A stretch of DNA of 64,000 bases from an uncultured Aquimarina sp. (GTDB lineage Bacteria; Bacteroidota; Bacteroidia; Flavobacteriales; Flavobacteriaceae), in contig NZ_CANMQT010000004.1 in NCBI RefSeq assembly GCF_947500065.1, positions 62,001 through 126,000 on the forward strand, written 5' to 3'. Numbering within the stretch: the stretch's first letter is position 1; each line of letters opens with the position of its first letter. Positions 8,151-37,712 of this stretch are shown piece after piece. The notes under the pieces were generated by a model. That model was not told the DNA's origin. It worked only from the letters and a program-made list of their open reading frames with translations, and did not search any database. The position numbers and the translations under genes are program-made.

Positions 8151-11006
8151 ATGAATAGAAAAACAATTTTCAACACATTCTTAGGAGTTTTTTTATGCAG
8201 TATTCCATTTTCTGGAATTGCTCAAACAACTACTAGTAAAGAGCTTGGAGCAGCTACTAATGTAAAAAATGAAGGTAAGATTCCTACGGATCCCAATGTC
8301 AAAATAGGAAAATTAGATAATGGTCTTACCTATTACATTCGTAATAATGGAAAACCTGAAGACAAAGTAGAATTAAGACTCGTTGTAAACGCAGGTTCCA
8401 TTTTAGAAGACGAAAACCAACTTGGATTGGCTCACTTCATGGAGCATATGAACTTTAATGGAACTAAGAATTTTAAAAAAAATGAACTTGTAGATTATCT
8501 ACAAACAATCGGGGTTAAATTTGGAGCAGATCTAAACGCATATACAAGTTTTGACCAAACCGTTTATATTTTACCTATTCCTAGTGATGATCCGGAAAAA
8601 TTAGAAAAAGGATTTCAAATTATAGAAGATTGGGCTCATAATGCAGAATTGACAGAAGAAGCAATTGATGGAGAAAGAGGTGTTGTATTAGAAGAATATC
8701 GATTGGGCAAAGGAGCTAATGAACGTATGCTACAAGAGTATCTACCTATCATAGCCTACAATTCTAGATACTCTGAACGTTTACCTATCGGTACAAAGAA
8801 GATCCTAGAGAATTTCAAATACGAAGATGTAAGGACTTATTATAAAGATTGGTACAGACCGGATTTAATGTCTGTAGTTGCTGTGGGTGATCTTGACGTA
8901 GCCACATTAGAACAAAAAATAAAGGATCATTTTAGTGGTATTAAAATGCCGAAAAACCCAAAAAAGAGAGAAACTTATGATACTCCTAATCATAAAGAAA
9001 CTCTTATTGCAGTAGTATCAGATAAAGAAGCCTCTAACTCTATAGTAAGAATTATGTATAAGGATAGAGAGATTTCAGAACCAATCACTAAGGTGGAAGA
9101 TTATAGAAAAGAAATAGTAGAAGGGGTATTTAGCCAAATGATGAATAATCGTCTTAATGAATTAAGAAACAAACCTAACCCACCTTTTGTATTCGCATTT
9201 AGCAGTCATAGTGGAACATTTGCGAGAAACAGAAAAGCTTACCAATCGTTTGCTATGACACCGGAAACAGGACAACTTAATGCCTTAAAAGTAATTTTAC
9301 AGGAGAACAAAAGAGTTAAACAATATGGTTTTAAAGCAGGAGAACTTGAACGTGCAAAAAAAGATATTTCTGCGCGGTGGGAAAAACAATTTAAAGATAA
9401 AGATAAGAGAGAATCTAATAGGATTATAGGACAATATATTAATAACTATTTACAACAAGAACCTATTCCTGGAATCGAATGGGAATATCAATATACAATG
9501 TCTCAATTACCTACTGTTACTCTAGAAGAAGTTAATGGGTTAATTAAAGACTTCTTGCATGATGATAACCGTGCAGTTGTTATGACCGGACCAGAAAAAG
9601 AAGGTCTAAAACAAGTTACCAAAGAAGAAATTCTTTCTTTATTAAAGGAAGTAGAAACTGCCAACATAGAAGACTATAAAGACGAGAAAGTTCGTGAGAA
9701 TTTGATCGAGAAAATGCCAACTCCAGGAAAAATTGTTTCATCTAAAAGAGATGAAAAACTAGATATTACGGTATTAGAATTAAGTAATGGAGCAAAAATC
9801 ACGTATAAGAAAACAGATTTCAAAAATGATGAAATACTGTTTTCTGGGTATAGTTATGGAGGAAGTTCTTTGTATAGTAACGAAGATTATTTGCAAATAG
9901 CTCATGGCGGCGGTAGTGTTTCGCAGACAGGTTTAGGAGGATTATCTTTAAATGATATGAACAAAGTAATGTCTGGCAAAATCGTAAGACTAAGACCTTA
10001 TATTGGTGGTATTTCTGAAGGTTTTAATGGATCATCTACTCCTAAAGATCTAGAAACTTTATTTCAACAAGTATACTTATACTTTACTGATGTAAACAAA
10101 GACGAGAAGGCATTTAGATCAGATCTGGAAAAACAAAAAGGTTTTTTAAGCAACTATCTTTCTAATCCTCAAAATTATTTTCGTGAAGAGTTTAATAAAT
10201 TTCAATTCGGGAAAAATCCAAGATATGTTGGTTTCCCTACAGCTGAAAAATTAGATGCAGCAAACTATGAACTAGCATATAAAAAATATAAGGAAAGATT
10301 CGCCGGTGCTGGTGGTTTCAATTTTTATTTTGTGGGTAACGTGGATGATGCTAAATTAAAAGAATACGCAGAGAAATATATTGCTAGTTTACCAAATACG
10401 GGTAAAGATGAAACCTATAAAGTATCTGATTTCAGGCCATTATCAGGTGCTCACGAGAAAACCGTATACAAAGGTAAAGACCCTAAAAGTGCTGTAAATA
10501 TTATTTGGAGAGGAGAAACGGAGTATACTAAATCAGAAGATTTAGCAATAAAAGCGCTAGGAGAAATCCTTTCGATCAAATTAATCGAAAAACTTCGTGA
10601 AGAAGAAGGTGGTGTATATGGAGTTGGTGCAAGAGGAAGACTTAATAAATTACCATATGGAAGTTATAACTTTAGTATAAGTTTCCCTTGCGGACCTGAA
10701 AATGTAAAAAAACTAACTGATGCCGCTATCACTGAGTTAAAAACAATCATACAAGAAGGACCAACCGATAAAGATCTTGCTAAAATTAAAGAATCTAGAT
10801 TATTAGAATATAAAGAAAAAAGTAAACAAAACTCATTTTGGTTAAACAACCTTCAGAGTGCTGATTATAATAAATCACCAATGGAGACTGGAGAAACATA
10901 TGCAGAAACTATTGCTAAGTTATCCAAACAAGATGTTCAAAATGTTGCTAAAAAGTACTTAGATAAAGGACATATTTTGGGTGTTTTAATGCCTGAAAAA
11001 GAATAA
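8151..11006 (+). CDS. Secreted M16-family zinc metallopeptidase (two-module, pitrilysin type)
   Basis: 951 residues. A signal peptide (about residues 1-25, ending SGIAQ) precedes two M16 modules. The first has the inverted zinc motif HFMEH (residues 95-99) and the downstream glutamate region ERGVVLEEYR (about 175-184). The second module (from about residue 560) lacks HxxEH and keeps the substrate-closing features GGVYGVGARG and NFYFVGNV. The length and one-active/one-inactive pattern match fused periplasmic M16 peptidases of Bacteroidota. It likely degrades peptides in the periplasm. It stands alone between two hairpins. Confidence 0.92.
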   Translation: MNRKTIFNTFLGVFLCSIPFSGIAQTTTSKELGAATNVKNEGKIPTDPNVKIGKLDNGLTYYIRNNGKPEDKVELRLVVNAGSILEDENQLGLAHFMEHMNFNGTKNFKKNELVDYLQTIGVKFGADLNAYTSFDQTVYILPIPSDDPEKLEKGFQIIEDWAHNAELTEEAIDGERGVVLEEYRLGKGANERMLQEYLPIIAYNSRYSERLPIGTKKILENFKYEDVRTYYKDWYRPDLMSVVAVGDLDVATLEQKIKDHFSGIKMPKNPKKRETYDTPNHKETLIAVVSDKEASNSIVRIMYKDREISEPITKVEDYRKEIVEGVFSQMMNNRLNELRNKPNPPFVFAFSSHSGTFARNRKAYQSFAMTPETGQLNALKVILQENKRVKQYGFKAGELERAKKDISARWEKQFKDKDKRESNRIIGQYINNYLQQEPIPGIEWEYQYTMSQLPTVTLEEVNGLIKDFLHDDNRAVVMTGPEKEGLKQVTKEEILSLLKEVETANIEDYKDEKVRENLIEKMPTPGKIVSSKRDEKLDITVLELSNGAKITYKKTDFKNDEILFSGYSYGGSSLYSNEDYLQIAHGGGSVSQTGLGGLSLNDMNKVMSGKIVRLRPYIGGISEGFNGSSTPKDLETLFQQVYLYFTDVNKDEKAFRSDLEKQKGFLSNYLSNPQNYFREEFNKFQFGKNPRYVGFPTAEKLDAANYELAYKKYKERFAGAGGFNFYFVGNVDDAKLKEYAEKYIASLPNTGKDETYKVSDFRPLSGAHEKTVYKGKDPKSAVNIIWRGETEYTKSEDLAIKALGEILSIKLIEKLREEEGGVYGVGARGRLNKLPYGSYNFSISFPCGPENVKKLTDAAITELKTIIQEGPTDKDLAKIKESRLLEYKEKSKQNSFWLNNLQSADYNKSPMETGETYAETIAKLSKQDVQNVAKKYLDKGHILGVLMPEKE

Positions 11007-26638: not shown

Positions 26639-28102
26639 TTATTGAACAACTAATTCTTCACAAAACTCTGTTCCATCAGGACAGGTATCGGTTTCAGTTT
26701 TGATACAGATTTGATACGTTCCCGGACTAAACTGAAAAAAGAACATATTATCTGCACCTTGACCACCATCTTGTTCTACGACATCTCCATTAATTGTCCA
26801 TTCATAGGTGATTACATCAATATTCTCGAAATTGGCTGTGAAATTATAACCAGATGTATTCCCTTCTTGTTCTATTGTGAAAAATAAACTAGGACAGATT
26901 GCCTCTACTACAATTTCTTTACAAAATTCCGCTCCATTAGGACAAGAAGGTGTCTCGGTTCTGATACACACTTCATGCACTCCTGGCAACAAATCAGACA
27001 AAAGTGTATTATCTCCTTCAATGCCTCCATCAGTCTCCACAAACTGATTGTCAATAAACCATTCATAGTTTAGCTCATCAATTCCTGTGAAACTAGATGA
27101 GAAAGTATATGCTAATGTTCCTGATTGCTGTTGAGATTCAAAAAACAATTCCGGACAAAAAGCAGCAACTTCTATTCTTTTACAAAATTCAACGCCTTCT
27201 GGGCACATCGCTGTTTCGGTTTTAATACAAACCTCATAAACTCCAGGAGCATTAAAATCCCGTATTAACAAATTATCACCCTGATTGTTTGGCCCATCAT
27301 TTTCAATAAACTCACCATTGATAAACCAACTATAAGAACCTATAGCGTCAAGGTCTGGGAAATCCGCCTCGAATCGATACCCTAAATTAAAAATATCAGT
27401 TTGTTCGAAATTAAAATCTAACTGAGGGCAACGACTCTCACAAGATTCTATCAACCTAAAAAAACCAAAATAAGTATCTATTATAGTTGTACTATCAAAA
27501 TTAGGAGCGACTAATACATTTACTGGGAATTTAAAATCTGGTTGATACGTTATTTCTTGATTTTGATAAAAAACCAAAAATTCTTGATCTGAAGCTATGC
27601 TAGTTTCATTCCCATCAGCATTTAACAAAATAACAGGATAATCAAATTTAAAACAACTATTAAAAAAACGATCAAATTCATCTCGAACAGTATCAAACTC
27701 ACATTCTCTTAAAATATTTAGTAGCGCTGTTTCATTGGCAATAGAAACCTCCGTATCCGTATTCTTAAAAACAATTTTAATAGGAAATTGTAATCCAGTA
27801 ATATTAAAATTTATTCCTTGACTAGAGACTACATCTACTAACCCATCATAACTGTCAATCCTAATAGTTGAATCAGTATTATACCCAAGCGTTATTGGAT
27901 AGACAAACCTAAAACACTGTTCACTTTCTGAAGGAAAAATCTCACCTGAATTAAAACTATTAAGAACAGTTACTAATGAGGTACTTGATATTACCCTATC
28001 CGTATTTTCTTCTGGAAAGAATGAATCATCATTCACACAACTACTGAATAATAGTACGATTAGCAATGTGGATAATTTTATGTATGTATTAAAATTCTTC
28101 AA
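26639..28102 (-). CDS. Repeat lipoprotein A: duplicated N-terminal module plus three cysteine-rich PKD-like repeats
   Basis: 487 residues from a TTG start (no ATG nearby). The lipobox is VLLFSSC, followed by acidic VNDDSFFPEEN, the pattern that sends Bacteroidota lipoproteins to the surface. Residues about 60-235 hold two copies of a module (CFRFVYPITL ... FPIKIVF and CFKFDYPVIL ... FPVNVLV). Three repeats of about 85 residues follow, each with CPxLxF, a YxWFINGE-type strand, YEVCIKTET, CPxGxxFC. Only the PKD-like fold is suggested; no enzyme motif is seen. It is preceded by an element matching the ECF-type promoter shared with its two paralogues and fecR. Confidence 0.8.
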   Translation of the reverse strand: MKNFNTYIKLSTLLIVLLFSSCVNDDSFFPEENTDRVISSTSLVTVLNSFNSGEIFPSESEQCFRFVYPITLGYNTDSTIRIDSYDGLVDVVSSQGINFNITGLQFPIKIVFKNTDTEVSIANETALLNILRECEFDTVRDEFDRFFNSCFKFDYPVILLNADGNETSIASDQEFLVFYQNQEITYQPDFKFPVNVLVAPNFDSTTIIDTYFGFFRLIESCESRCPQLDFNFEQTDIFNLGYRFEADFPDLDAIGSYSWFINGEFIENDGPNNQGDNLLIRDFNAPGVYEVCIKTETAMCPEGVEFCKRIEVAAFCPELFFESQQQSGTLAYTFSSSFTGIDELNYEWFIDNQFVETDGGIEGDNTLLSDLLPGVHEVCIRTETPSCPNGAEFCKEIVVEAICPSLFFTIEQEGNTSGYNFTANFENIDVITYEWTINGDVVEQDGGQGADNMFFFQFSPGTYQICIKTETDTCPDGTEFCEELVVQ

Positions 28103-28125: not shown

Positions 28126-28153
28126 AAACGTTTATACGTTGATACACCCTACC
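28126..28153 (-). promoter_or_regulatory. Predicted ECF sigma promoter upstream of repeat lipoprotein A
   Basis: On the minus strand GGTAGGGT (28153-28146), 15 bases, then CGTTT (28130-28126) followed by TACTTAT. The same two boxes with the same spacing occur upstream of fecR and of the two other repeat lipoprotein genes. CGTTT ends 23 bases before the TTG start. Confidence 0.75.
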
Positions 28154-28845
28154 ATACAAACATAATTTTAAATGATATGCGATTTAAAAATTTTAGCCAA
28201 AAAAAAACTTTTAAGTTACTACTTAATTATTTTCAATGTATGAAAATTAAATCAAAACCAAAAAATGCTTCAATTTATATCCAAAATGTCTCCAATAAAC
28301 ATACTTCATTTGATAGACTTTATAAAGTAAAATTTAAATACGAAACTTTAATACTTTTCAGAATTCCTTAAAACCAAAAGGTTACTTAATTAAAAAGAAT
28401 TAACACATCTTTTTTTTAACTAACAATAATTGGTTTTTTCCCCTCAAAACAATAAATTACACTTACTAAAAATCAATCAAAAAACAAACTAACACCTTGT
28501 TTATAAAAAGACTACCATAACACAAAGGGAAAATTCATTTTCACAAGAACTTTCTTTTAATTACACACATACCGGCTATAACTTTTAGGGTAAACGGACA
28601 AACTTAAAATAATTGACTACATACTTTTAAAACAACTGCATTTCTATTGATTATTAAATACAATAAGAATATCAACACATCAACGTAATAATTACAACTC
28701 TAAAGTAGATTTACTTTAGAAAACTACATTAGATATACAAAACATACAGAAGAAACTTCTCATCATTTTAGGTGAGTAGTGACAAGGAGAAAAAAATGAC
28801 CTGAACACTCCTAAACAAGGTAAGGCAACTCTAAAACTCACACCG
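28154..28845. other. AT-rich region without recognisable gene
   Basis: 692 bases, strongly AT-rich with homopolymer runs. Short open frames have no homology-like features. It contains a partial match to the ECF -35 box (TAGGGTAA at 28586-28593) without a CGTTT box at 15 bases. It should hold the promoter of the M57-like protease gene, but I cannot place it. Confidence 0.5.
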
Positions 28846-30273
28846 ATGAAAAAATTAATTACAGGCCTTTTGACCACTTTATTATTCTCTATTCTCATAG
28901 GGTGTTCTGAAGACGACTTAACACTTAACGAAGAATCAACTTCTAACGCACAAAGTCTCAAAGAATATGAAATTACCGAGAATGATTTAATTAAGATTAG
29001 AAAATTAAATTTCAATACTTTAGGATTAAGGTTAGTCGATCGAAAAAACACTGACGGTACATTTGAAAAATATTATATCATCGAGGAAGATATAATGATA
29101 CCTTTTGATCAGGTGAATGAAATGATATCATCTAATAATTCAGCAAAGCAATATCATTCTAATAATATAGTAACTAATAACAGAAACATAACTATAAGAG
29201 GTGTGAATCAAGGAGCAAATGACCTTACAATTTCTCAACAAAATGCACTCACACAGGCAATACAAAATTATAATGATTTAGATATTGGTCTCAACTTTAT
29301 TTTAACTTTTGGCCCAAGAGATAATACAATGGATATTAATGCAATCGAGATCATAGATTCTCGTGCTGGTGCTAGCGCAGATTTTCCTTTTAATGGGAAT
29401 CCTGGACCAGAAGTAAGAATATTCTCAGGAACAAGAAACTTGAATGCTCAAATATTAAGACATATCTGGATACACGAGTTTGGTCACACCTTAGGCTTGC
29501 GGCATACAGATTGGTTTAGTAGAGAAAGTTGTGGTTTAGACAGCTCCGAACCCATTAATCCTCCTGGTTTTCCTAATGCAAACGGAGCTAATCATATTCC
29601 TGGAACACCTACAGGATTTGATCCAAATTCTGTAATGATAGCTTGTTATAATAATTCTGTCCCTGGAGAATTTGGGGGTTTTGATATTGTAGCATTAAAC
29701 TTTTTGTACCCTCTATCTTTATCATTAACGGGATCATCACTTATTTGTAATAATTCTACTGAAATTTACAATCTAAATAATACAAATTTTCCTATTACCT
29801 GGACAACATCTTCAAATCTTCAGATTTTATCTTCTTCTGATAATAGTATTACGGTAAAGCCTGTAAATAGTTCGTTTAATGGATCAGGGTTTATCCAAGG
29901 TACTTCTCCAACTCAAAACATTCGTAAAGATGTGTGGGTAGGAAAAGCTGTTGTAGACTATATTGAATTTGGCAATGGTATTGGAGAAACTGATTATTTT
30001 TGTTCTAGTCATTATGGTAATACTTATGATATCTTTCCTAGGTTACCAGGTACAACACATCAAATAAGAGTTCGAAGATGGCCTAGTTTATCTATCGTAT
30101 ATAGTCCATCAACTAATTATTCCGGAAATTCCGGTACACTAAACTACACACCTTCTCCTGGTTGGTATGTTTTCGAAATAAGAAGAACTAACCCTTGTGG
30201 CACTTCAGAATGGTTCGAAACCGAGGTTGAGTTTGTAGATTGTTCTAATAACGAAGGTGGAGGAGAATTTTAA
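28846..30273 (+). CDS. M57-like zinc metalloprotease lipoprotein
   Basis: 475 residues. The lipobox cysteine is Cys20 (ILIGC), followed by SEDDLTLNEE, a surface-export-like acidic tail. The zinc site is HEFGHTLGLRH (His210, Glu211, His214, His220), with a downstream Met-turn-like SVMIACY. This matches the 'dual-action HEIGH' M57 group of metzincin-like proteases. Residues from about 280 to the end look like two beta-sandwich modules (Ig/PKD-like). It probably acts at the cell surface on peptides or proteins. It is the only plus-strand gene among the repeat lipoproteins. Confidence 0.85.
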   Translation: MKKLITGLLTTLLFSILIGCSEDDLTLNEESTSNAQSLKEYEITENDLIKIRKLNFNTLGLRLVDRKNTDGTFEKYYIIEEDIMIPFDQVNEMISSNNSAKQYHSNNIVTNNRNITIRGVNQGANDLTISQQNALTQAIQNYNDLDIGLNFILTFGPRDNTMDINAIEIIDSRAGASADFPFNGNPGPEVRIFSGTRNLNAQILRHIWIHEFGHTLGLRHTDWFSRESCGLDSSEPINPPGFPNANGANHIPGTPTGFDPNSVMIACYNNSVPGEFGGFDIVALNFLYPLSLSLTGSSLICNNSTEIYNLNNTNFPITWTTSSNLQILSSSDNSITVKPVNSSFNGSGFIQGTSPTQNIRKDVWVGKAVVDYIEFGNGIGETDYFCSSHYGNTYDIFPRLPGTTHQIRVRRWPSLSIVYSPSTNYSGNSGTLNYTPSPGWYVFEIRRTNPCGTSEWFETEVEFVDCSNNEGGGEF

Positions 30274-30354
30274 TTTCTATATAAATTCCTTCATTAGAAA
30301 CTTGATTCTTTTATGATCTAAGTTTTGGCTTTAATAACCTTGTAAAGTTTAATA

Positions 30355-30394
30355 AACAAAATTCCCTGGAAGAATGGCAATGCTCCCAGGGAAT
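30355..30394 (-). terminator. Terminator downstream of repeat lipoprotein B
   Basis: attccctgg (30361-30369) pairs with ccagggaat (30386-30394). Read on the minus strand it is followed by TTTTGTTT. It may also serve the convergent M57 gene, but no T run exists on that side. Confidence 0.7.
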
Positions 30395-30426
30395 CAACCT
30401 AATTAATCTAACCTAACTAAACTTGT

Positions 30427-31851
30427 TTATTCAATCACTAATGTTTTACAAAATGTTGTTCCATTCGGACAATTTGGCGTTTCTGCTATGATACAGATTT
30501 CATATGTCCCTGCTCCAAACTGATAGTACAAATAATCATCTCTATCATTACTGCCTAGTGTCTCAGAATTCACTACATCTCCATTGATGGTCCATTCGTA
30601 AGAAACATCATTCATACCTTCGAATTCTGCCCAGAAATTATATCCAGGTGTATTTCCTTCTTGTTCAATATTGAAAAATAAATTTGGGCAATCTGTTCCT
30701 GATTCTTCTATTTCAATTACTTTACAGAATGTTACTCCTTGTGGACAGTCTGGTGTTTCTACAGAAAGACACACTTCATAACTTCCTGGATTAAATTGAT
30801 AGTAAAAAGGATCATTGTGCCCAGAACTAGTTCCTACATAATCTCCATTTACAGACCACTCTAATGTTACATTATCTATTCCTTCGAAAGCGTTTGGATA
30901 AAAATAATACGCAGGGTTATCTCCATCTTGCTCTGCTTCAAAAAACAAATCAGGACAAGTAGTATCACCTTCGATTTCAATAATCTTACAATATGATGTT
31001 CCTTCTGGACATTCTGGAGTTTCAGTTTTTAAACATACTTCATATCTTCCAGGAGCGAATTGATAATAGAATCTGTTATTGTCACCATTATTAGAATCTT
31101 CTACTAACTCTCCATTAATATACCATCCTAACCACTCAACATCATTAGCTCCTTCAAATTCCACTTGGAAGTAATATGCTGGATTATCACCGTCTTGTTC
31201 TGCAATAAAAAATAAATCAGGACATGTTTCATTAACTTCTTCTACCTCTATTACTTTACAATACGAAGTTCCATTAGGACAATCAGGAGTTTCTGTTTTG
31301 ATACACACTTCATATCTTCCTGGTGTTTCAAACTCCCAGAACAAGTAGTTGTCATCATTCTGATTATCATTTTCTACTACCTCTCCGTTAATAAACCACT
31401 CATAACGTGTTTCTTCAATTTCTGGAAAATCTGCTATAAACTTATATTTATTTGGTCTTTCGAGCTGTCTTGCTTCAAAGAAAAGGTCTGGACAAGGATC
31501 AGTTTCATCTCGATCCACCTCAATCTCTTTACACACCTCTATAGGACAAGTATCGCTTGCTACTTTTACACAAATAGTATGCGTTCCTTCTTCAAATTGA
31601 TAATCGAATATCTGACTCGCTATATCATTCAGGTTTCCTGTGTCTACTTCTTCTCCATCAATAGACCAAGTAAATCTCACATCTTCTACACCATCTAATT
31701 GAGCTACAAAACGATATACTGCGCTACCTGGCACATTCTCAATATTAATAGTTATATCCGGACACGTTTCGAATTCTTCGTTTTCTTCACAAGAAGTAAA
31801 TCCTACTAGTAATGTAAAAATCATTACACACCAAATACTAAGTTTTTTCAT
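30427..31851 (-). CDS. Repeat lipoprotein B: five cysteine-rich PKD-like repeats
   Basis: 474 residues. The signal peptide ends in the lipobox cysteine Cys21 (VGFTSC), then EENEEFET, an acidic surface-export-like tag. Five repeats of about 85-90 residues follow directly. Units two to five each show CPDLFFxAEQ-like start, a Y-x-F strand, EWxINGExV, YYQFxPGxYEVCLKTETPxCPxGTxxCKxIEIE. Each repeat has four cysteines at fixed places. No catalytic motif is seen. It is monocistronic: it has its own predicted ECF promoter 69 bases upstream and a terminator downstream. It is paralogous to the genes on either side of it on this strand. Confidence 0.82.
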   Translation of the reverse strand: MKKLSIWCVMIFTLLVGFTSCEENEEFETCPDITINIENVPGSAVYRFVAQLDGVEDVRFTWSIDGEEVDTGNLNDIASQIFDYQFEEGTHTICVKVASDTCPIEVCKEIEVDRDETDPCPDLFFEARQLERPNKYKFIADFPEIEETRYEWFINGEVVENDNQNDDNYLFWEFETPGRYEVCIKTETPDCPNGTSYCKVIEVEEVNETCPDLFFIAEQDGDNPAYYFQVEFEGANDVEWLGWYINGELVEDSNNGDNNRFYYQFAPGRYEVCLKTETPECPEGTSYCKIIEIEGDTTCPDLFFEAEQDGDNPAYYFYPNAFEGIDNVTLEWSVNGDYVGTSSGHNDPFYYQFNPGSYEVCLSVETPDCPQGVTFCKVIEIEESGTDCPNLFFNIEQEGNTPGYNFWAEFEGMNDVSYEWTINGDVVNSETLGSNDRDDYLYYQFGAGTYEICIIAETPNCPNGTTFCKTLVIE

Positions 31852-31919
31852 CTTTATAATTTTTTAGGGGTTGTCAATAGTTAATTTTCAAGAAGCTTTA
31901 TAACCGCTCCACAATAATG

Positions 31920-31947
31920 AAACGCAGCTAAAAAAGAATACCCTACC
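31920..31947 (-). promoter_or_regulatory. Predicted ECF sigma promoter upstream of repeat lipoprotein B
   Basis: Minus strand GGTAGGGT (31947-31940), 15 bases, CGTTT (31924-31920), followed by CATTATT. It is preceded by a G run. CGTTT ends 68 bases before the ATG, almost the same as at lipoprotein C (66). Confidence 0.8.
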
Positions 31948-31998
31948 CCCATTCCTACAAAAAAAACATTAAACACCTCTCTTTTTTCTTAAAACCCT

Positions 31999-32034
31999 AA
32001 TAAAAATGAGGTCATACATATGCATGACCTCATT
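31999..32034 (-). terminator. Terminator downstream of repeat lipoprotein C
   Basis: aatgaggtcat (32005-32015) pairs perfectly with atgacctcatt (32024-32034). On the minus strand it is followed by TTTTTA. Confidence 0.85.
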
Positions 32035-32069
32035 AGTGAAATATTCAGAGTGATTCTTTTCTTATCAGT

Positions 32070-33494
32070 TTATCCTTGATAATCTATCTCAATACATTTC
32101 TCTAAGTTACCGCAGGTTTGTGAAACCGCTTTATAACAGATTTCATATTTTCCGGATTGATTAACGTGATCTTGAAGTCTTGCAACTCTAGGTGTAATCG
32201 GTGTAATTACAGTACCATCAATTGTCCATACTACAGAACTAGGATCTATATCTGTAATTGATAATGACGTTGCGATAGCAATCTTATCCTCATAATTAAT
32301 CACATCAAAAACTGAACAATCGATACTTTGCGGTTCTGGTATAACAATGCTCGCGCAATATTCTGTTCCATTTGGACAGTCATTCGTTGCTGCTTTAATA
32401 CAAACATTATAAGTTCCTGGATTATATGAACTCAAATCAAGTAGATCATCTCTATCCTGATTTTGTAAAGTTTCTGTTTCTACCAATACACCATCAACAA
32501 ACCACTCATAAACATCTAATTGATCAATCCCAGGAAAATTAGCAAACATCAAAGTTCCCTCTTCAATAAATGATAAGTCAGGACAATCATCTCCACCATT
32601 ATTATTATCTGTTACCTGGACTGTTGTACAAACCTCTATTCCTTGAGAACATTCATTAGAATTAAACTTCACACATACTTCATAAGATCCAAGGTTATAA
32701 TCACTAAGATCCAATGTAACAATACTGCCTTGAACCTGTAAATCTTCAGCAGCTAAAAGTTGATTATTTACATACCATTTAAATAAATCAATATCCTGCG
32801 TACCACTTATTGTTGCGGTCACCACATTTCCTTCTGAAACAATTGAAAGATCTGGGCAAGATCCTTGTCCATCTCCATCTACAGTAATGTCTTCGCAATA
32901 TTCAGCACTAGTACAGGTTGGACTTTCAGAAATTAAACAAATAGTATACGTACCTTCTTCTAAATCGTTAAGAGAAAATTTATTATCCCCTTGATTATTA
33001 GTGCCTTCATTTTCTATAATGACTTCATTGCCAAGAGTCTCTCCAGTAACTTGCCAAGCATAAAATTCTAGCGTATCAATACCCTCAAAATCAGCAATTA
33101 GGTAATCACCTTCTTTTGTGAATTTCAATTCCGGACAACCTTCCATATCCTCTCCAACAACTATATCCTCACAAAATTCTACACCTCCAGGACAATCAGG
33201 AGTTTCTGCTTTTATACAAATAGTATAAGTACCTACTTCATATTCAGAAATATCTAAAGTATTGTCACGCTGATCTTCTAAACTCTCGGTTTCTACCAAT
33301 TGGTCGTTTACAAACCATTCGTATACATCTAAACTATTTATTTCTTCAAAATTAGCAATTAGTTTCCCACCATCTCTTTCAAAAGATAATTCAGGGCATT
33401 CTGAGGTTGGATCGTTTTCATCATTTTCTTCACAAGAAGTGAATGCAACTATAAGCCCAAGCATAAGTAGGCAAAGGATTCTAAGATTTTTCAT
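32070..33494 (-). CDS. Repeat lipoprotein C: five cysteine-rich PKD-like repeats, last one divergent
   Basis: 474 residues, the same length as lipoprotein B. The lipobox cysteine is in VAFTSC, followed by EENDENDPTSE. Repeats start CPELSFER, CPELKFTK, CPDLSIVS, CPDLSFIE and a divergent fifth (CSVFDVIN). Typical repeat text is DVYEWFVNDQLVETE and GTYTICIKAETPDCPGGVEFC. Compared with lipoprotein B the repeats lack the FFxAEQ strand text and form their own subtype. It diverges from the ECF sigma gene across a 161-bp gap. Function is unknown; a surface or adhesive role is inference only. Confidence 0.82.
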   Translation of the reverse strand: MKNLRILCLLMLGLIVAFTSCEENDENDPTSECPELSFERDGGKLIANFEEINSLDVYEWFVNDQLVETESLEDQRDNTLDISEYEVGTYTICIKAETPDCPGGVEFCEDIVVGEDMEGCPELKFTKEGDYLIADFEGIDTLEFYAWQVTGETLGNEVIIENEGTNNQGDNKFSLNDLEEGTYTICLISESPTCTSAEYCEDITVDGDGQGSCPDLSIVSEGNVVTATISGTQDIDLFKWYVNNQLLAAEDLQVQGSIVTLDLSDYNLGSYEVCVKFNSNECSQGIEVCTTVQVTDNNNGGDDCPDLSFIEEGTLMFANFPGIDQLDVYEWFVDGVLVETETLQNQDRDDLLDLSSYNPGTYNVCIKAATNDCPNGTEYCASIVIPEPQSIDCSVFDVINYEDKIAIATSLSITDIDPSSVVWTIDGTVITPITPRVARLQDHVNQSGKYEICYKAVSQTCGNLEKCIEIDYQG

Positions 33495-33560
33495 TTTAAT
33501 TTTTTAATTAAAGATTAAGTAAAAACTCAATTGAGATGTTTGTGTGTTATAACAATAATA

Positions 33561-33588
33561 AAACGATAAGGAACACGCCTACCCCACC
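33561..33588 (-). promoter_or_regulatory. Predicted ECF sigma promoter upstream of repeat lipoprotein C
   Basis: Minus strand GGTGGGGT (33588-33581), 15 bases, CGTTT (33565-33561), followed by TATTATT. It has one base different from the other three -35 boxes. CGTTT ends 66 bases before the ATG. Confidence 0.78.
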
Positions 33589-33620
33589 CCTCATTTATCT
33601 TTTTTTTGCAATTTCTTTTT

Positions 33621-33648
33621 TTTGATACCAGAAAAAAATCTAGTTTTG
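33621..33648 (+). promoter_or_regulatory. Housekeeping-type promoter of the ECF sigma gene
   Basis: TTTG (33621-33624), 16 bases, then TAGTTTTG (33641-33648), an exact TAnnTTTG. The spacing is shorter than the usual 19. Transcription would begin near 33655, at or just before the first possible ATG. Confidence 0.5.
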
Positions 33649-33655
33649 ACGTCTA

Positions 33656-34189
33656 ATGAATCCCCAAATGTCTGATAGTAAAAACTCTACTTGTGACGAA
33701 CAAGTCTTTGATCAATTTTTCAAAAGTCATGCTAAACTTTTGAGAAGTTATCTATATTATAAATTTGGGGATCTTGATCAGGCAGAAGATATTGTGCAGG
33801 ACTCCTTCATTAAACTATGGAATAATTGTTCAAAGGTATCCATAGATAAGGCAAAAAGCTATGTCTATACAATCGCTACTAATCTAGGAATTAGTATAGC
33901 GCGCCATCAACAAGTAAAGTTTAAGCACCAAAAATACATTACACAACGAAAAAGTGATGTTACCAATGAATCTCCTGAATTCGTCATGCTAGAAAAAGAA
34001 TACATGGAGAAGCTAAAAAATGCTATAGCAGATTTACCGAATAGACAGAGAGAAGTTTTTCTTTTGAGTAGAATTGATAAAAAAACATATAGAGAAATTG
34101 CCGAGTTATCGAATGTATCGGTAAAAGCAATAGAGAAATTAATGCATAAAGCTTTAGTGACTTTAAGAAAAAAAATCGGAAATATTTAA
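33656..34189 (+). CDS. ECF-type RNA polymerase sigma factor (FecI-like)
   Basis: 177 residues. Region 2 includes LRSYLYYKFGDLDQAEDIVQ and DSFIKLWNN. Region 4 includes LPNRQREVFLLSRIDKKTY and the recognition helix SNVSVKAIEKLMHKAL. This is the Bacteroidota FecI-like group that works with FecR and a TonB-dependent receptor, both encoded next. The ATG at 33656 would give an almost leaderless mRNA; the ATG at 33668 is the alternative. I infer that it reads the GGTRGGGT-15-CGTTT promoters found beside it. Confidence 0.92.
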   Translation: MNPQMSDSKNSTCDEQVFDQFFKSHAKLLRSYLYYKFGDLDQAEDIVQDSFIKLWNNCSKVSIDKAKSYVYTIATNLGISIARHQQVKFKHQKYITQRKSDVTNESPEFVMLEKEYMEKLKNAIADLPNRQREVFLLSRIDKKTYREIAELSNVSVKAIEKLMHKALVTLRKKIGNI

Positions 34190-34195
34190 AACAGA

Positions 34196-34223
34196 GGTAG
34201 GGTAACACCAAACTTAAACGTTT
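34196..34223 (+). promoter_or_regulatory. Predicted ECF sigma promoter upstream of fecR
   Basis: GGTAGGGT (34196-34203), 15 bases, CGTTT (34219-34223), followed by CTATTAT. It sits between the sigma and fecR genes, so fecR and the receptor gene can be transcribed separately from the sigma gene. CGTTT ends 20 bases before the fecR ATG. Confidence 0.8.
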
Positions 34224-34243: not shown

Positions 34244-35158
34244 ATGTTTGACAATAAAAAAGATGATATATTCTTATCCAGATGGGTTAATGGAGATCTT
34301 TCTCCAGAGGAACTTAGTGAGTTCCAATCGCATCCGGAATACGAATATTATATGAAGATTTTAGCTGGTGCTGATACTTTGGATCTGGCGGAGTATGATG
34401 TAGATGCTGCTTTACGTAACATAAAATCAAATAAACAAACTTCTTATAAGAAGAACACAAAACCGGTTATTAAAATTTGGCCTTATTTAGCTGTAGCAGC
34501 TTCGGTTGCGGTTATATTTGGATTATTCTTATTCAATTCTAATGACTCATTTGCAACTTCTTATGGCGAACAACTAGCAGTAACCTTGCCAGATGGTTCT
34601 GAAATGATATTAAATGCTAAGTCTGAAGCAAGTTTTGATGAAAAAAATTGGAAAACAAACAGAACCGTTTCACTAAACGGCGAAGCCTATTTTAAAGTAA
34701 AAAAGGGAAGTAAATTTACAGTTACTACTAAAAACGGAGATGTTTCCGTATTAGGAACTGAATTTAACGTACAATCACAAGCTTCATTTTTCGAAGCAGT
34801 TTGCTATGAAGGCAAGGTACGTGTTACAAGCAACCAAGATAATACAATTCTTACAGCTGGAAAAGCTTACAGAAACATTACAAACACGGCCCCTGAACAT
34901 TGGACGCTTGTAGCGCAAGAACCTTCCTGGATTACTAACACAAGTTCGTTTAGAAGTATTCCTCTACACTATGTTTTCAAAGAATTAGAGGATCAATACA
35001 ATATCACTATCAATACAAAGAATATAGATACAGATATAATTTATACTGGAACTTTCCCTAATAATAACATAAATGTTGCTCTTAAAACAGTTTTTAGTAC
35101 CTTAGGTTTGCAATACCAGCTATTGCAAAACGGTAAGACCGTGGTAGTAGAAAATTAA
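34244..35158 (+). CDS. FecR-family anti-sigma factor
   Basis: 304 residues. A short cytoplasmic N-terminal domain binds sigma factors in this family (about 1-80, including FLSRWVNGDLSPEELSEF). One membrane segment follows (about 84-102, PYLAVAASVAVIFGLFLF). The periplasmic FecR domain (about 110-205) includes LAVTLPDGSEMILNAKSE and VSVLGTEFNVQ. The C-terminal DUF4974 domain includes RSIPLHYVFKELEDQYNITI. It transmits the receptor signal to the sigma factor. It is 4 bp before the receptor gene. Confidence 0.93.
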   Translation: MFDNKKDDIFLSRWVNGDLSPEELSEFQSHPEYEYYMKILAGADTLDLAEYDVDAALRNIKSNKQTSYKKNTKPVIKIWPYLAVAASVAVIFGLFLFNSNDSFATSYGEQLAVTLPDGSEMILNAKSEASFDEKNWKTNRTVSLNGEAYFKVKKGSKFTVTTKNGDVSVLGTEFNVQSQASFFEAVCYEGKVRVTSNQDNTILTAGKAYRNITNTAPEHWTLVAQEPSWITNTSSFRSIPLHYVFKELEDQYNITINTKNIDTDIIYTGTFPNNNINVALKTVFSTLGLQYQLLQNGKTVVVEN

Positions 35159-35162
35159 AAGA

Positions 35163-37712
35163 ATGAAGAGACTTTTATGTGTATGCATACTTTTGTGGAG
35201 TACATCTGTTTTTTCACAGGAAAAAGCAACTATAATTGATGCGAAAAACTACCCTTTATCGCAAGTAATCCCTTCTTTAGAAAAACAATTCAATGTAAAA
35301 TTCTCATACATTGATGCAACTATTATTAATAAATCTGTTTCAATACAAACCAATGCTGATACAAGCATAGAGGATGTTATTAAGAGCTTGCAATTACAAT
35401 CAAAATTAAAATTCGAAATTACAGGAGAAAATTTCATCACTATTAGAAAGTATTCTCAGAATGATAGTGTTACCATCTGTGGTTATATTTATAATGAAAA
35501 TTCTGAGCCGTTAGAAAAAATTAGAGTATTCTTTAAAGCTTCTAGAACTAACATAACTACCAATGAGAAAGGGTATTTTGAAAACACAGATATTCCTTTT
35601 AATTCCGCGATTTTAATAAGTGCGCCAGGATTTAGACAGAAAGTATTAAACTCTTCTGAATTTCTTACTAATGAATGCATTAATATCTATCTCACCAATA
35701 CCATAGAAGCGCTGGACGAAGTCGTTATTCAAGAATACCTTACCAAGGGAATTACTCAAAATAAAAAAGTAGTAAATATTAACCTAAAGGACATTGAGAT
35801 ATTGCCTGGTCTTACGGAACCGGATATATTGCAGAGTATTCAATTGACGCCAGGTGTTAATAGTCCATTCGAAACCGCATCAGGTTTATATGTACGTGGT
35901 AGTGCTCCTAATCAAAACTTAGTGCTTTGGAATGGCATCAAAACATACCATCAAGGGCATTTTTTTGGTATGTTATCTGCTTTTAATCCATATGTTGTAA
36001 AAGAAGTAGATTTTTCTAAAAGTGGAGTTAGCGCCCAATATGGAGATAGAATCTCCGGAGTAATTGATATCAAAACTGAAAATGAGGTTGTTAACCGTTT
36101 TACCGGAGGAGCAGGGTTTAATATGATCAATGCGGATGCAGTTGTTCATGCACCGATTATAAAAGATAAAGTATCATTACAACTATCCGGAAGACGTTCA
36201 TATACGGACGTTCTAGAAACATTTACCTATAAACAATTTGCTGATCGTGTTTTTCAGAATACTACCATCGCGGAAACAAACCCACTTAATGAAGTTAAAA
36301 ATGATTTTTTCTATGCAGACTATAATGCCAACCTGATTGCTAAAGTGTCGGATTTTGACAAAATTGAAGTAAATGCACTTTACAGTAAAAATGATCTTGA
36401 TTTTAGAAGAAGTGATGATCTTATGTCTTTTAATGATGATTTAGCAACAGAAAATGAAGGGTATAACATAAGCTGGAAGCACAGCTGGAGTGATCGTTTT
36501 AACGTTCGTACTAGTGGATATTACACAAGCTATTTGCTGAATTATCAATTCATCACCGGAGCATCTGGAATAACAACTGAAACTGAAAGCAAAAAGAATA
36601 GTGTAAAAGATTTTGGTGCTGCTATAGATGCTAATTACTCTCTATCTGATTATCATAAAATTCTTGGTGGATATCAATTTTCGAATAATACTATCAAGTA
36701 TGCATTTGTAACTACTACGCCTAGCTATGAATTAGTTTTGGATCAAGATGATCGTTTTCTAAATACACATGCAGTTTATGGTGAATATAAATATGAAACC
36801 CCTAAAAACTTTTATCTCTCTGCAGGACTGCGCTTAAATCATTATACCGAATTAGATAAAACATTTATAGAACCCAGAGTTTTTATACAGAAAAACTTAT
36901 CTAAATATTGGGAAGTAAACGCTACAGGTGAATATCGTAGCCAGGCTGTCAGCCAGATTAGAGAATCCGTAGTTAGTGATCTATCCTTAGAAAATCAAGT
37001 TTGGACGCTATCAAACAAAGAGCAGTTCCCTGTGATTACTAGTTATCAGTTTACGCTAGGAAGTAGTTTTAAGAAAAACAAATGGTATTTTGATGTAGAT
37101 ACATATTACAAACAAATAGATGATATCACTTCGCTAACGGCAGGTTTCATCAATCCAATTGATAATACCTATCATAACGGAGAAAGTAGCGTCTACGGCA
37201 TTGATTTTTTTCTAAAAAAGCGTTTCAAAAACTATAAGACCTGGGTAAGTTATTCATATATCAATACTCGAAATAAATTTGAGGATATCAATAATAATGA
37301 ATCTTTTCCTGGTAATTGGAACATTGAACACACGGTAAAATGGTCTCACTTTTATAAGATCAATAATTTTCAATTTTCCTTAGGTTGGCTCTGGCATACT
37401 GGCAAAGCTTTTACCAATGTTGCTGGAGTTGATGAAAGTGGGAATCTGGTATTACTAGATTTTGGAGAAATCAATGGTACGAATCTACCTATATATCACA
37501 GATTAGATTTTTCTGCAATTTATGATTTCAAAATAAGGTCTAATCCATATATCAAATATCGAATAGGACTTTCTGTATTGAACCTTTATGATCGAGAAAA
37601 CATATTAAATCGAGAGTTTAGAACTACCAATTCACTAGACAATCGATTTATTAACTCAGATATTTTTGCTTTGGGGATTACTCCTAACCTAAGTTTTAGG
37701 GTGCTTTGGTAG
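35163..37712 (+). CDS. TonB-dependent outer-membrane receptor with STN signalling domain
   Basis: 849 residues. A signal peptide (ending SVFSQ) precedes an STN domain (about 25-95, including PLSQVIPSLEKQFNVKFSYI), a carboxypeptidase-regulatory-like beta domain (about 103-180), a plug (about 200-305, including VRGSAPNQNLVLWNGI and QYGDRISGVIDIKTE) and a long beta-barrel ending in FRVLW with a terminal aromatic. The STN domain marks it as a transducer that contacts FecR. No SusD partner is encoded nearby, so a classical glycan-uptake pair is not present. The ligand is unknown. A terminator follows. Confidence 0.93.
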   Translation: MKRLLCVCILLWSTSVFSQEKATIIDAKNYPLSQVIPSLEKQFNVKFSYIDATIINKSVSIQTNADTSIEDVIKSLQLQSKLKFEITGENFITIRKYSQNDSVTICGYIYNENSEPLEKIRVFFKASRTNITTNEKGYFENTDIPFNSAILISAPGFRQKVLNSSEFLTNECINIYLTNTIEALDEVVIQEYLTKGITQNKKVVNINLKDIEILPGLTEPDILQSIQLTPGVNSPFETASGLYVRGSAPNQNLVLWNGIKTYHQGHFFGMLSAFNPYVVKEVDFSKSGVSAQYGDRISGVIDIKTENEVVNRFTGGAGFNMINADAVVHAPIIKDKVSLQLSGRRSYTDVLETFTYKQFADRVFQNTTIAETNPLNEVKNDFFYADYNANLIAKVSDFDKIEVNALYSKNDLDFRRSDDLMSFNDDLATENEGYNISWKHSWSDRFNVRTSGYYTSYLLNYQFITGASGITTETESKKNSVKDFGAAIDANYSLSDYHKILGGYQFSNNTIKYAFVTTTPSYELVLDQDDRFLNTHAVYGEYKYETPKNFYLSAGLRLNHYTELDKTFIEPRVFIQKNLSKYWEVNATGEYRSQAVSQIRESVVSDLSLENQVWTLSNKEQFPVITSYQFTLGSSFKKNKWYFDVDTYYKQIDDITSLTAGFINPIDNTYHNGESSVYGIDFFLKKRFKNYKTWVSYSYINTRNKFEDINNNESFPGNWNIEHTVKWSHFYKINNFQFSLGWLWHTGKAFTNVAGVDESGNLVLLDFGEINGTNLPIYHRLDFSAIYDFKIRSNPYIKYRIGLSVLNLYDRENILNREFRTTNSLDNRFINSDIFALGITPNLSFRVLW

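Follow-up and report, generated by a model that had tools for sequence, protein, structure and literature searches.

Which promoters does a FecR-linked sigma factor of the Bacteroidota use, and which genes lie behind them? The question is raised by a 64,000-nucleotide stretch of DNA from an uncultured Aquimarina sp. (assembly GCF_947500065.1, contig NZ_CANMQT010000004.1, positions 62,001 to 126,000 of the forward strand; hereafter the window), which carries genes for an extracytoplasmic function (ECF) sigma factor, a FecR-type anti-sigma factor and a TonB-dependent receptor, and, nearby, genes for three repeat lipoproteins, A, B and C. A sequence-only reading of the window had proposed that this sigma factor recognizes two boxes, GGTRGGGT and CGTTT, standing 15 bases apart before fecR and before each lipoprotein gene. 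The comparisons described here make it very probable that the locus is a cell-surface-signalling regulon in which the local sigma factor drives GGTRGGGT-N15-CGTT promoters. The motif itself is real, and comparison lends its interpretation good support.

All four sites were found exactly at the positions proposed, with the 15-base gap and in front of the genes named. Orthologous loci were compared for conservation of the boxes, using 40 loci from congeners (the best fecR matches down to genome G051) and the window, 41 loci in total; the locus counts allow A for the first G and a gap of 15 or 16 nucleotides (nt). The predicted promoters, with the conservation that this comparison established, are:

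34196..34223, + strand: ECF-type promoter of the fecR-receptor operon, GGTAGGGT-N15-CGTTT; exact match, site in 41/41 orthologous loci
28126..28153, - strand: ECF-type promoter of lipoprotein A; exact match, site at 39/41 lipA genes
31920..31947, - strand: ECF-type promoter of lipoprotein B; exact match, site at 32/36 lipB genes
33561..33588, - strand: ECF-type promoter of lipoprotein C; exact match, site at 17/20 lipC genes

No further copy with up to one mismatch was found in the window, nor was there one before the sigma gene or the gene for an M57-type peptidase, as had been stated. Across the 41 loci the site was likewise absent before the sigma gene (0/41), the receptor gene (0/41), ndk (0/35) and the M57 gene (0/2). 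Dinucleotide shuffles of the window gave a mean of 0.03 matches and never reached 4. When the whole genome was scanned (6.57 Mb, 69 contigs), the exact CGTTT form occurred five times, four of them in the window. The shorter form GGTRGGGT-N15-CGT had 7 copies in this genome and 1 for a reversed control pattern, and two of its three extra copies are conserved in relatives. An extra exact copy at C3:622888 lies inside an open reading frame (ORF) of 351 residues with no gene start behind it, and was treated as chance. Single-mismatch copies taken alone are at background, because the long form with at most one mismatch gave 9 real and 9 control matches.

The spacing of the boxes is conserved too. 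Among the 40 fetched loci, with gaps of 5-30 nt allowed, 124 of 129 box pairs were 15 nt apart, 2 were 16 nt apart, 3 were 26 nt apart, and no other gap occurred. The base after CGT was T in 124/124 unique sites of the 41 loci, though the pattern had left it free, and in the same 124 sites the spacer letters were near background while boxes and spacing were conserved. Two boxes at a fixed gap, the second a GT-containing -10 box, kept over a variable spacer, are what an ECF-type promoter would be expected to look like.

The distribution of the motif follows that of the sigma factor. In 54 Aquimarina genomes GGTRGGGT-N15-CGT was found 303 times, and the reversed pattern 93 times. The 45 genomes with a sigma factor of at least 55% identity contributed 287 real and 78 control matches, a split that is rough for the most distant of them because some paralogues reach 55-58%. 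The remaining nine (G003, G011, G013, G019, G024, G031, G046, G049 and G050), in which no sigma factor exceeded 54% identity to the query (E 1e-45), contributed 16 real and 15 control matches, and hence no motif excess. When a slightly longer form was sought in 195 further genomes of the Flavobacteriales, 17 matches were obtained, and 24 for the control, a number counted by eye. The shuffles, the reversed pattern, the gap histogram and the genomes without the sigma factor together rule out chance as the source of the motif. The proposal that the local ECF sigma factor reads these sites is supported by the conserved boxes and spacing, the diverged spacer and the lack of motif excess where the sigma factor is missing.

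The genes of the locus, and the one promoter of another type, are:

33656..34189, + strand: ECF sigma factor gene, with Sigma70_r2 and r4; probable start 33668
33641..33648, + strand: TAGTTTTG, -7 box of sigma-A type before the sigma gene, read in the window; TAnnTTTG box in 41/41 loci
34244..35158, + strand: FecR-type anti-sigma factor (PF04773 3.4e-19, PF16344 1e-08)
35163..37712, + strand: TonB-dependent receptor (transducer) with an N-terminal signalling-type domain (PF16344 at 28-92, PF13715, plug, barrel)
26639..28102, - strand: lipoprotein A, in which two N-terminal units and three PKD-like repeats can be made out by eye
30427..31851, - strand: lipoprotein B, with PKD-like cysteine-bearing repeats (PKD_3 37.6 bits, over the cut-off)
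32070..33494, - strand: lipoprotein C; repeats like those of lipoprotein B by eye, no PKD_3 match
28846..30273, + strand: M57-type metallopeptidase lipoprotein (PF12388 2.9e-47); no site, so outside the regulon of this genome

The sigma gene had been credited with a housekeeping-like promoter, and this held: TAnnTTTG occurs no more than 150 nt before residue 21 in every one of the 41 loci. In or just after the paired-box sites it was present in only 10/128 and missing from 118/128, and on this contrast a housekeeping promoter appears to serve the sigma gene, and ECF-type promoters the other genes. The gene itself lies where it had been placed, at 33656, but it probably begins at the ATG at 33668, because most orthologues have 172-173 residues and lack the first four. 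The listed ORF start at 33656 is 8 bases past the end of the -7 box.

Regions 2 and 4 are both present in the sigma factor (PF04542 8.1e-12, PF08281 1.2e-14), which scores 125.7 bits against TIGR02985, slightly under the cut-off of 126.4. Its neighbour, the FecR-type anti-sigma factor, matches both of its families over the cut-off, as does the receptor for PF16344 (residues 28-92), PF07715 and PF00593; its N-terminal FecR_C-type domain is of the kind usually called STN. An ECF sigma factor, a FecR protein, a transducer receptor and a sigma-dependent promoter before the receptor operon are among the features by which cell-surface signalling is defined, and by sequence this locus has the three proteins and the predicted promoter.

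How far does the regulon reach? The proposal of four promoters stands for the fecR-receptor unit and for lipoproteins A to C, but at least two more promoters are predicted in this genome. The first is a site at C2:28394 before the gene of a 429-residue protein whose type IX sorting domain scores 31.9 bits against a cut-off of 27; a homologue is present in 10/54 genomes, our own included, and has the exact site in 8 of the 10. The second, at C3:467738, lies about 235 nt before a gene for a 57-residue protein, which is found in 42/54 genomes. The site, with at most one mismatch and at nearly the same distance, was present in 25/30 loci examined, and three genomes that have the gene without the site (G019, G046 and G050) are all sigma-less. 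When 19 of these loci were aligned, a housekeeping promoter was kept in 19/19, and the ECF boxes formed an island kept in 17/19, some with one letter changed, that is gone in G019 and G050. The 57-residue protein (C3:467738-468171 in this genome; loci L007 and L276) is probably membrane-bound, as judged by eye. On this evidence the regulon of this genome probably also includes a type IX-secreted protein and the 57-residue protein gene.

Among related species the regulon appears more varied. Forty stretches around further sites were picked among the matches listed, not at random, and other stretches were added to them. Of 14 sites in A. agarilytica, 11 stand before a gene whose product looks exported by eye: ten at no more than 60 nt, and a lipA-like gene at 140 nt. 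Seventeen proteins encoded downstream of sites in several genomes, our own included, comprised 10 that match the type IX sorting domain (E 0.001), 5 of which exceed its cut-off, and 2 M57 peptidases. The M57 gene had been set outside the regulon, and we likewise reject it as a member in this genome, where it has no site, but two M57 lipoproteins of A. agarilytica carry one.

Some conserved sites have no ORF behind them. These sites led to two conserved families of RNA-like sequences, R1 (about 70 nt) and R2 (about 110 nt), which end in a hairpin and a T run, at the following loci:

L109-L113, L142, L143, L138: one group of loci in sister species
L116-L119, L140, L144, L148: the other group of loci in sister species

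Models built without the promoter part, used at E 1e-4, detected R1 in 15 of the 54 genomes and R2 in 19, and neither in our own. Hits outside model building numbered 7 for R1 and 12 for R2, several of them near copies of sequences that had been used, and four of their sites had been listed previously. Both boxes were exact upstream of 5/7 of these R1 hits and 12/12 of the R2 hits (one with a 16-nt gap), and the remaining two R1 hits had one mismatch in the boxes, one of them also a 16-nt gap. Most sites begin about 33 nt before the modelled start, and the families begin near the place expected for a transcription start after the -10 box; four sites of the full R2 set are more distant, at -60, -63, -127 and -139. 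Weaker R1 hits, with E above 1e-4, look like plain terminators without boxes. Folding z-scores of five R1 and R2 examples ranged from -3.8 to -4.7. In the R1 hairpin 93% of cells are paired, and 5/12 pairs show changes on both sides, a modest covariation that 29/500 shuffles reach. Rfam had no family match in the window or in the seven RNA loci submitted. In A. intermedia (L105, positions 8961-9600; G028 contig 6) four units, each an ECF site, an RNA-like stretch of about 110 nt and a hairpin, stand in tandem, 169-171 bases apart. We consider R1 and R2 probably to be small RNAs that belong to the regulon in some relatives and that would be expressed from these promoters.

Possible base pairing of these RNAs with the start regions of the locus genes was compared in nine genomes. 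R1 paired best with lipB in 4/9 and tied for best in a fifth, and R2, as read from the table, paired best with the sigma message in 5/9 and ranked it among the top two in 7/9; in the remaining genomes first place went to unrelated ORFs, ndk, receptor, lipA or fecR. R1 shows a weak tendency towards the start region of lipB or fecR, and R2 towards that of sigma, which we take only as a lead because the genomes are closely related and each background comprised 15-20 ORFs.

The same data bear on whether the boxes are promoters at all. Two fixed boxes at a fixed gap near genes could also suit a protein dimer, so that a dimeric repressor or activator would bind there, or else the boxes would form an RNA element within the transcript. 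By eye, however, the boxes are neither an inverted nor a direct repeat, and 118/128 of the sites have no TAnnTTTG in or just after them. The sites also lie a median of 21 nt from the fecR start in Aquimarina loci and, for the most part, at the offset given above before the modelled start of the two RNA families, each of the four tandem A. intermedia units has its own copy, and layout and spacing fit an ECF promoter. We therefore regard a binding site or RNA element as very improbable, and retain the reading of the boxes as ECF promoters.

Is it the local sigma factor that uses them? Relatives outside the genus were found with receptor alignment A3 in Cytophagales and other groups, and upstream regions were examined in nine Cytophagales contigs and one unplaced metagenome-assembled genome; L238, which is cut off there, shows no site. 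The module recurs together with its boxes: a site precedes fecR in 10/10, seven of the gaps being 15 nt and three 16 nt, and the sigma factor is 53-65% identical in nine of the ten, none having been found beside fecR in L235. Where a lipB-type lipoprotein is present in these loci (L229-L252), its promoter has the site in 9/9, always with a 16-nt gap.

Other FecR-linked systems carry related but distinguishable sites. In Ancylomarina, Allomuricauda, Flagellimonas and Croceitalea the FecR systems, which are more distant, have (G)GTAGGGT and a 15-nt gap, with TGTT for CGTT. Our own genome has 9 FecR matches, and other sigma-fecR-receptor units were seen on C8, C1, C4 and C3 (loci L081-L087 and L089-L095). 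Four sigma/fecR paralogues of this genome have a recognizable site before fecR with a 15-nt gap, and their second boxes are TGTT (two), TGTA and GGTT; the first box is GTAGGGT in three and GTAGGAG in one of the TGTT paralogues. Among 78 sigma/fecR pairs, all 46 with a sigma identity of at least 72% have a C-type site; it is exact in 44, has A in place of the first G in one and a gap of 16 nt in another. Five pairs in which no site could be clearly made out were dropped (L084, L085, L101, L102 and L108), and the remaining 73 comprised 60 C-type, 12 T-type and 1 G-type, the 16-nt-gap pairs L078, L098, L229, L239 and L244 having been assigned to the C-type by hand. Sigma residues 78-83 separate the C- and T-types, with S80 in 60/60 and N80 in 12/12, a difference that is confounded with phylogeny. 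The differing second boxes may form a code that separates parallel sigma systems.

These paralogues also give substance to another explanation, in which the boxes are read by a different sigma factor of the genome, or by several FecR-linked ones with the local factor only a contributor. The number of FecR systems in this genome and the sharing of GTAGGGT and the 15-nt gap speak for it. The paralogue sites nevertheless have TGTT, TGTA or GGTT and not CGTT, genomes that bear paralogues without a close orthologue of the sigma factor show no CGT-type excess, and the C- and T-type sigma factors differ at residues 78-83, with the same confounding by phylogeny. Taken together, these observations make reading by another sigma factor unlikely.

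Several observations weigh against the reading of these sites by the local sigma factor. The site is missing at 2 lipA, 4 lipB and 3 lipC genes, although a neighbour's transcript may extend into some of them. Two homologues of the type IX protein, those of G051 and G040, are without it, and the G025 homologue, which has it, contains internal stops. G041 and G051 have the sigma factor but no site before the 57-residue protein gene, and G024, an 89% complete draft in which no close sigma factor was found, retains that site and both RNAs. Four of the nine sigma-less genomes are incomplete (55-89%). Finally, the G-type paralogue (L087, L095) has GGTAGGGT-N15-GGTT, and a second related sigma factor of the same genome could read some of the sites.

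With the local sigma factor as the probable reader, the regulon would work as follows. Signalling from receptor to FecR to sigma factor is established for these protein families (PMC9249621). The sigma gene would be transcribed from its constitutive-type housekeeping promoter, separately from the fecR-receptor unit, and its product would be held by the FecR-type anti-sigma factor, whose partner would be the TonB-dependent receptor encoded downstream. When the receptor meets its ligand, FecR would, by analogy with the family, release the sigma factor, which would direct RNA polymerase to the GGTRGGGT-N15-CGTT promoters. Transcription would then be predicted for fecR and the receptor, lipoproteins A to C, the type IX-secreted protein and, through a second, upstream promoter, the 57-residue protein gene. 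A sigma-dependent fecR-receptor unit would both amplify the sensor and provide feedback by the inhibitor. In sister species the same promoter would serve the two short terminator-ended RNA families, other type IX cargo and M57 lipoproteins.

What would the lipoproteins do? Lipoprotein A, which appears to start at the TTG at 28102, scores 20.7 bits against PKD_3, under the cut-off of 26.3, and 14 of the 25 members of its alignment (A5) match PKD_3 at E 0.01. Orthologues of lipoprotein B fall into length classes about 90 residues apart (386, 474, 565 residues and longer), as if whole repeats had been gained and lost. A Por_Secre_tail match of lipoprotein C, with a summed 42.6 bits and no single stretch passing, was taken as an artefact of the repeats. 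Acidic residues follow the lipid cysteine, VNDDSFFP, EENEEFET and EENDENDQ being typical among the sequences whose lipobox was parsed by script, which are part of the set. In Flavobacterium johnsoniae the consensus for surface lipoprotein export is SDDFE, according to the sections covered of PMC5080379, and the residues seen here are compatible with surface export of that kind.

The lipoproteins could accordingly be surface partners of the receptor, capturing its substrate in the style of SusD or surface glycan-binding proteins, with the whole regulon serving as an uptake system. Their predicted co-regulation, their conservation beside the receptor from Aquimarina to Cytophagales, the PKD-like repeats and the acidic residues after the cysteine are in keeping with this, as is a weak profile match of lipoprotein A to the surface glycan-binding protein 6e57. 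That match, at E 0.035, is not significant, and only weak matches to solved structures were obtained for lipoprotein A; sequence profiles found no solved relative of the receptor alignment at E 0.001 or of lipoprotein B at 0.1. No SusD match was found for lipoproteins A to C in Pfam (E 0.1) or NCBIfam (E 0.01), and the SusD-type lipoprotein that would mark a SusC/SusD nutrient uptake locus is thus apparently missing. Moreover, type IX cargo and M57 peptidases make up the other regulon members that were scanned, and these are no obvious glycan enzymes. An uptake system of this kind is compatible with the promoter part of our scheme, and we think it a serious possibility, if rather less likely to hold than to fail. 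For the regulon as a whole, a layer for surface capture or attachment, switched on when the receptor meets its substrate, seems to us the most plausible role, and we hold this with moderate confidence.

A bolder proposal can be made, which taken whole is speculative and rather doubtful: that one TonB-receptor sigma factor runs a mixed regulon of repeat lipoproteins, type IX proteins and small RNAs acting as a feedback arm on the system's own messages, and that parallel FecR-linked sigma factors share a GTAGGGT-N15 frame and are told apart mainly by the first -10 base (C, T or G), read by residues 78-83. Promoter sequences of FecR-linked ECF sigma factors in Bacteroidota are hardly known in the literature covered, despite the many such systems. 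In the present case sequence makes it possible to follow one sigma factor, with its promoter and regulon, through a genus and on into a second order, and the boxes link surface lipoproteins, type IX cargo and probable small RNAs to a TonB receptor. They can be searched for in any related genome, and they offer a testable code for the separation of parallel sigma factors.

The system had been thought not to have been described. A full-text literature search, judged by titles, the openings of abstracts and excerpts, and with most subscription papers lying outside it, returned no description of the regulon or of a GGTRGGGT-N15-CGTT promoter, but the locus belongs to a known class, cell-surface signalling. 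It resembles FecI-FecR-FecA, the ferric citrate system of E. coli, in its ECF sigma factor, FecR-type anti-sigma factor and TonB receptor with a signalling domain, and in having the receptor gene behind a sigma-specific promoter. In contrast to E. coli, the Aquimarina sigma gene stands alone, the fecR-receptor pair is predicted to be the sigma-dependent unit, and the outputs would comprise, besides repeat lipoproteins and type IX cargo, RNA genes in relatives. HasI-HasS is a system of Serratia in which HasS is the anti-sigma factor of HasI. In the covered parts of PMC9249621, E. coli fecIR is regulated by Fur and not autoregulated, and HasI drives hasS while hasI is not autoregulated. As far as those parts go, HasI-HasS has the same wiring as proposed here, a sigma factor that drives its anti-sigma gene and not its own. 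HasI-HasS differs in serving haem uptake. We know of no lipoprotein set for it.

VreA-VreI-VreR (PUMA3) of Pseudomonas aeruginosa is, from the sections covered of PMC2729926, likewise cell-surface signalling whose targets include secreted proteins, together with secretion components; there VreA is modelled with a signalling and a TolA/TonB-like domain and not as a barrel receptor, and phylum and targets are different. Within the Bacteroidota, the excerpts covered of PMC9723704 give the SM6 promoters of Flavobacterium psychrophilum a CGT box at -10 and list among them type IX secretion genes and a putative regulatory RNA, Rfp11, and those of PMC12596196 give a non-canonical -30/-10 motif of B. 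thetaiotaomicron with TGTT near -10. The running text of these excerpts, as distinct from the logos, mentions no GGTRGGGT -35 box and no 15-nt gap tied to one FecR-linked sigma factor. The SM6 list, as covered, also includes an ECF sigma/anti-sigma operon itself, whereas the Aquimarina sigma gene has no site. ECF21-Dma of B. thetaiotaomicron, described as ECF/anti-sigma pairs that control the cell envelope (PMC13088901, sections covered), shares envelope control by a Bacteroidota ECF/anti-sigma pair and differs in its sigma group and in an anti-sigma factor that spans both membranes and ends in a beta-barrel. Set beside these systems, the Aquimarina locus reads as a form of cell-surface signalling whose promoter is unusually clear and whose regulon is wider than first thought.

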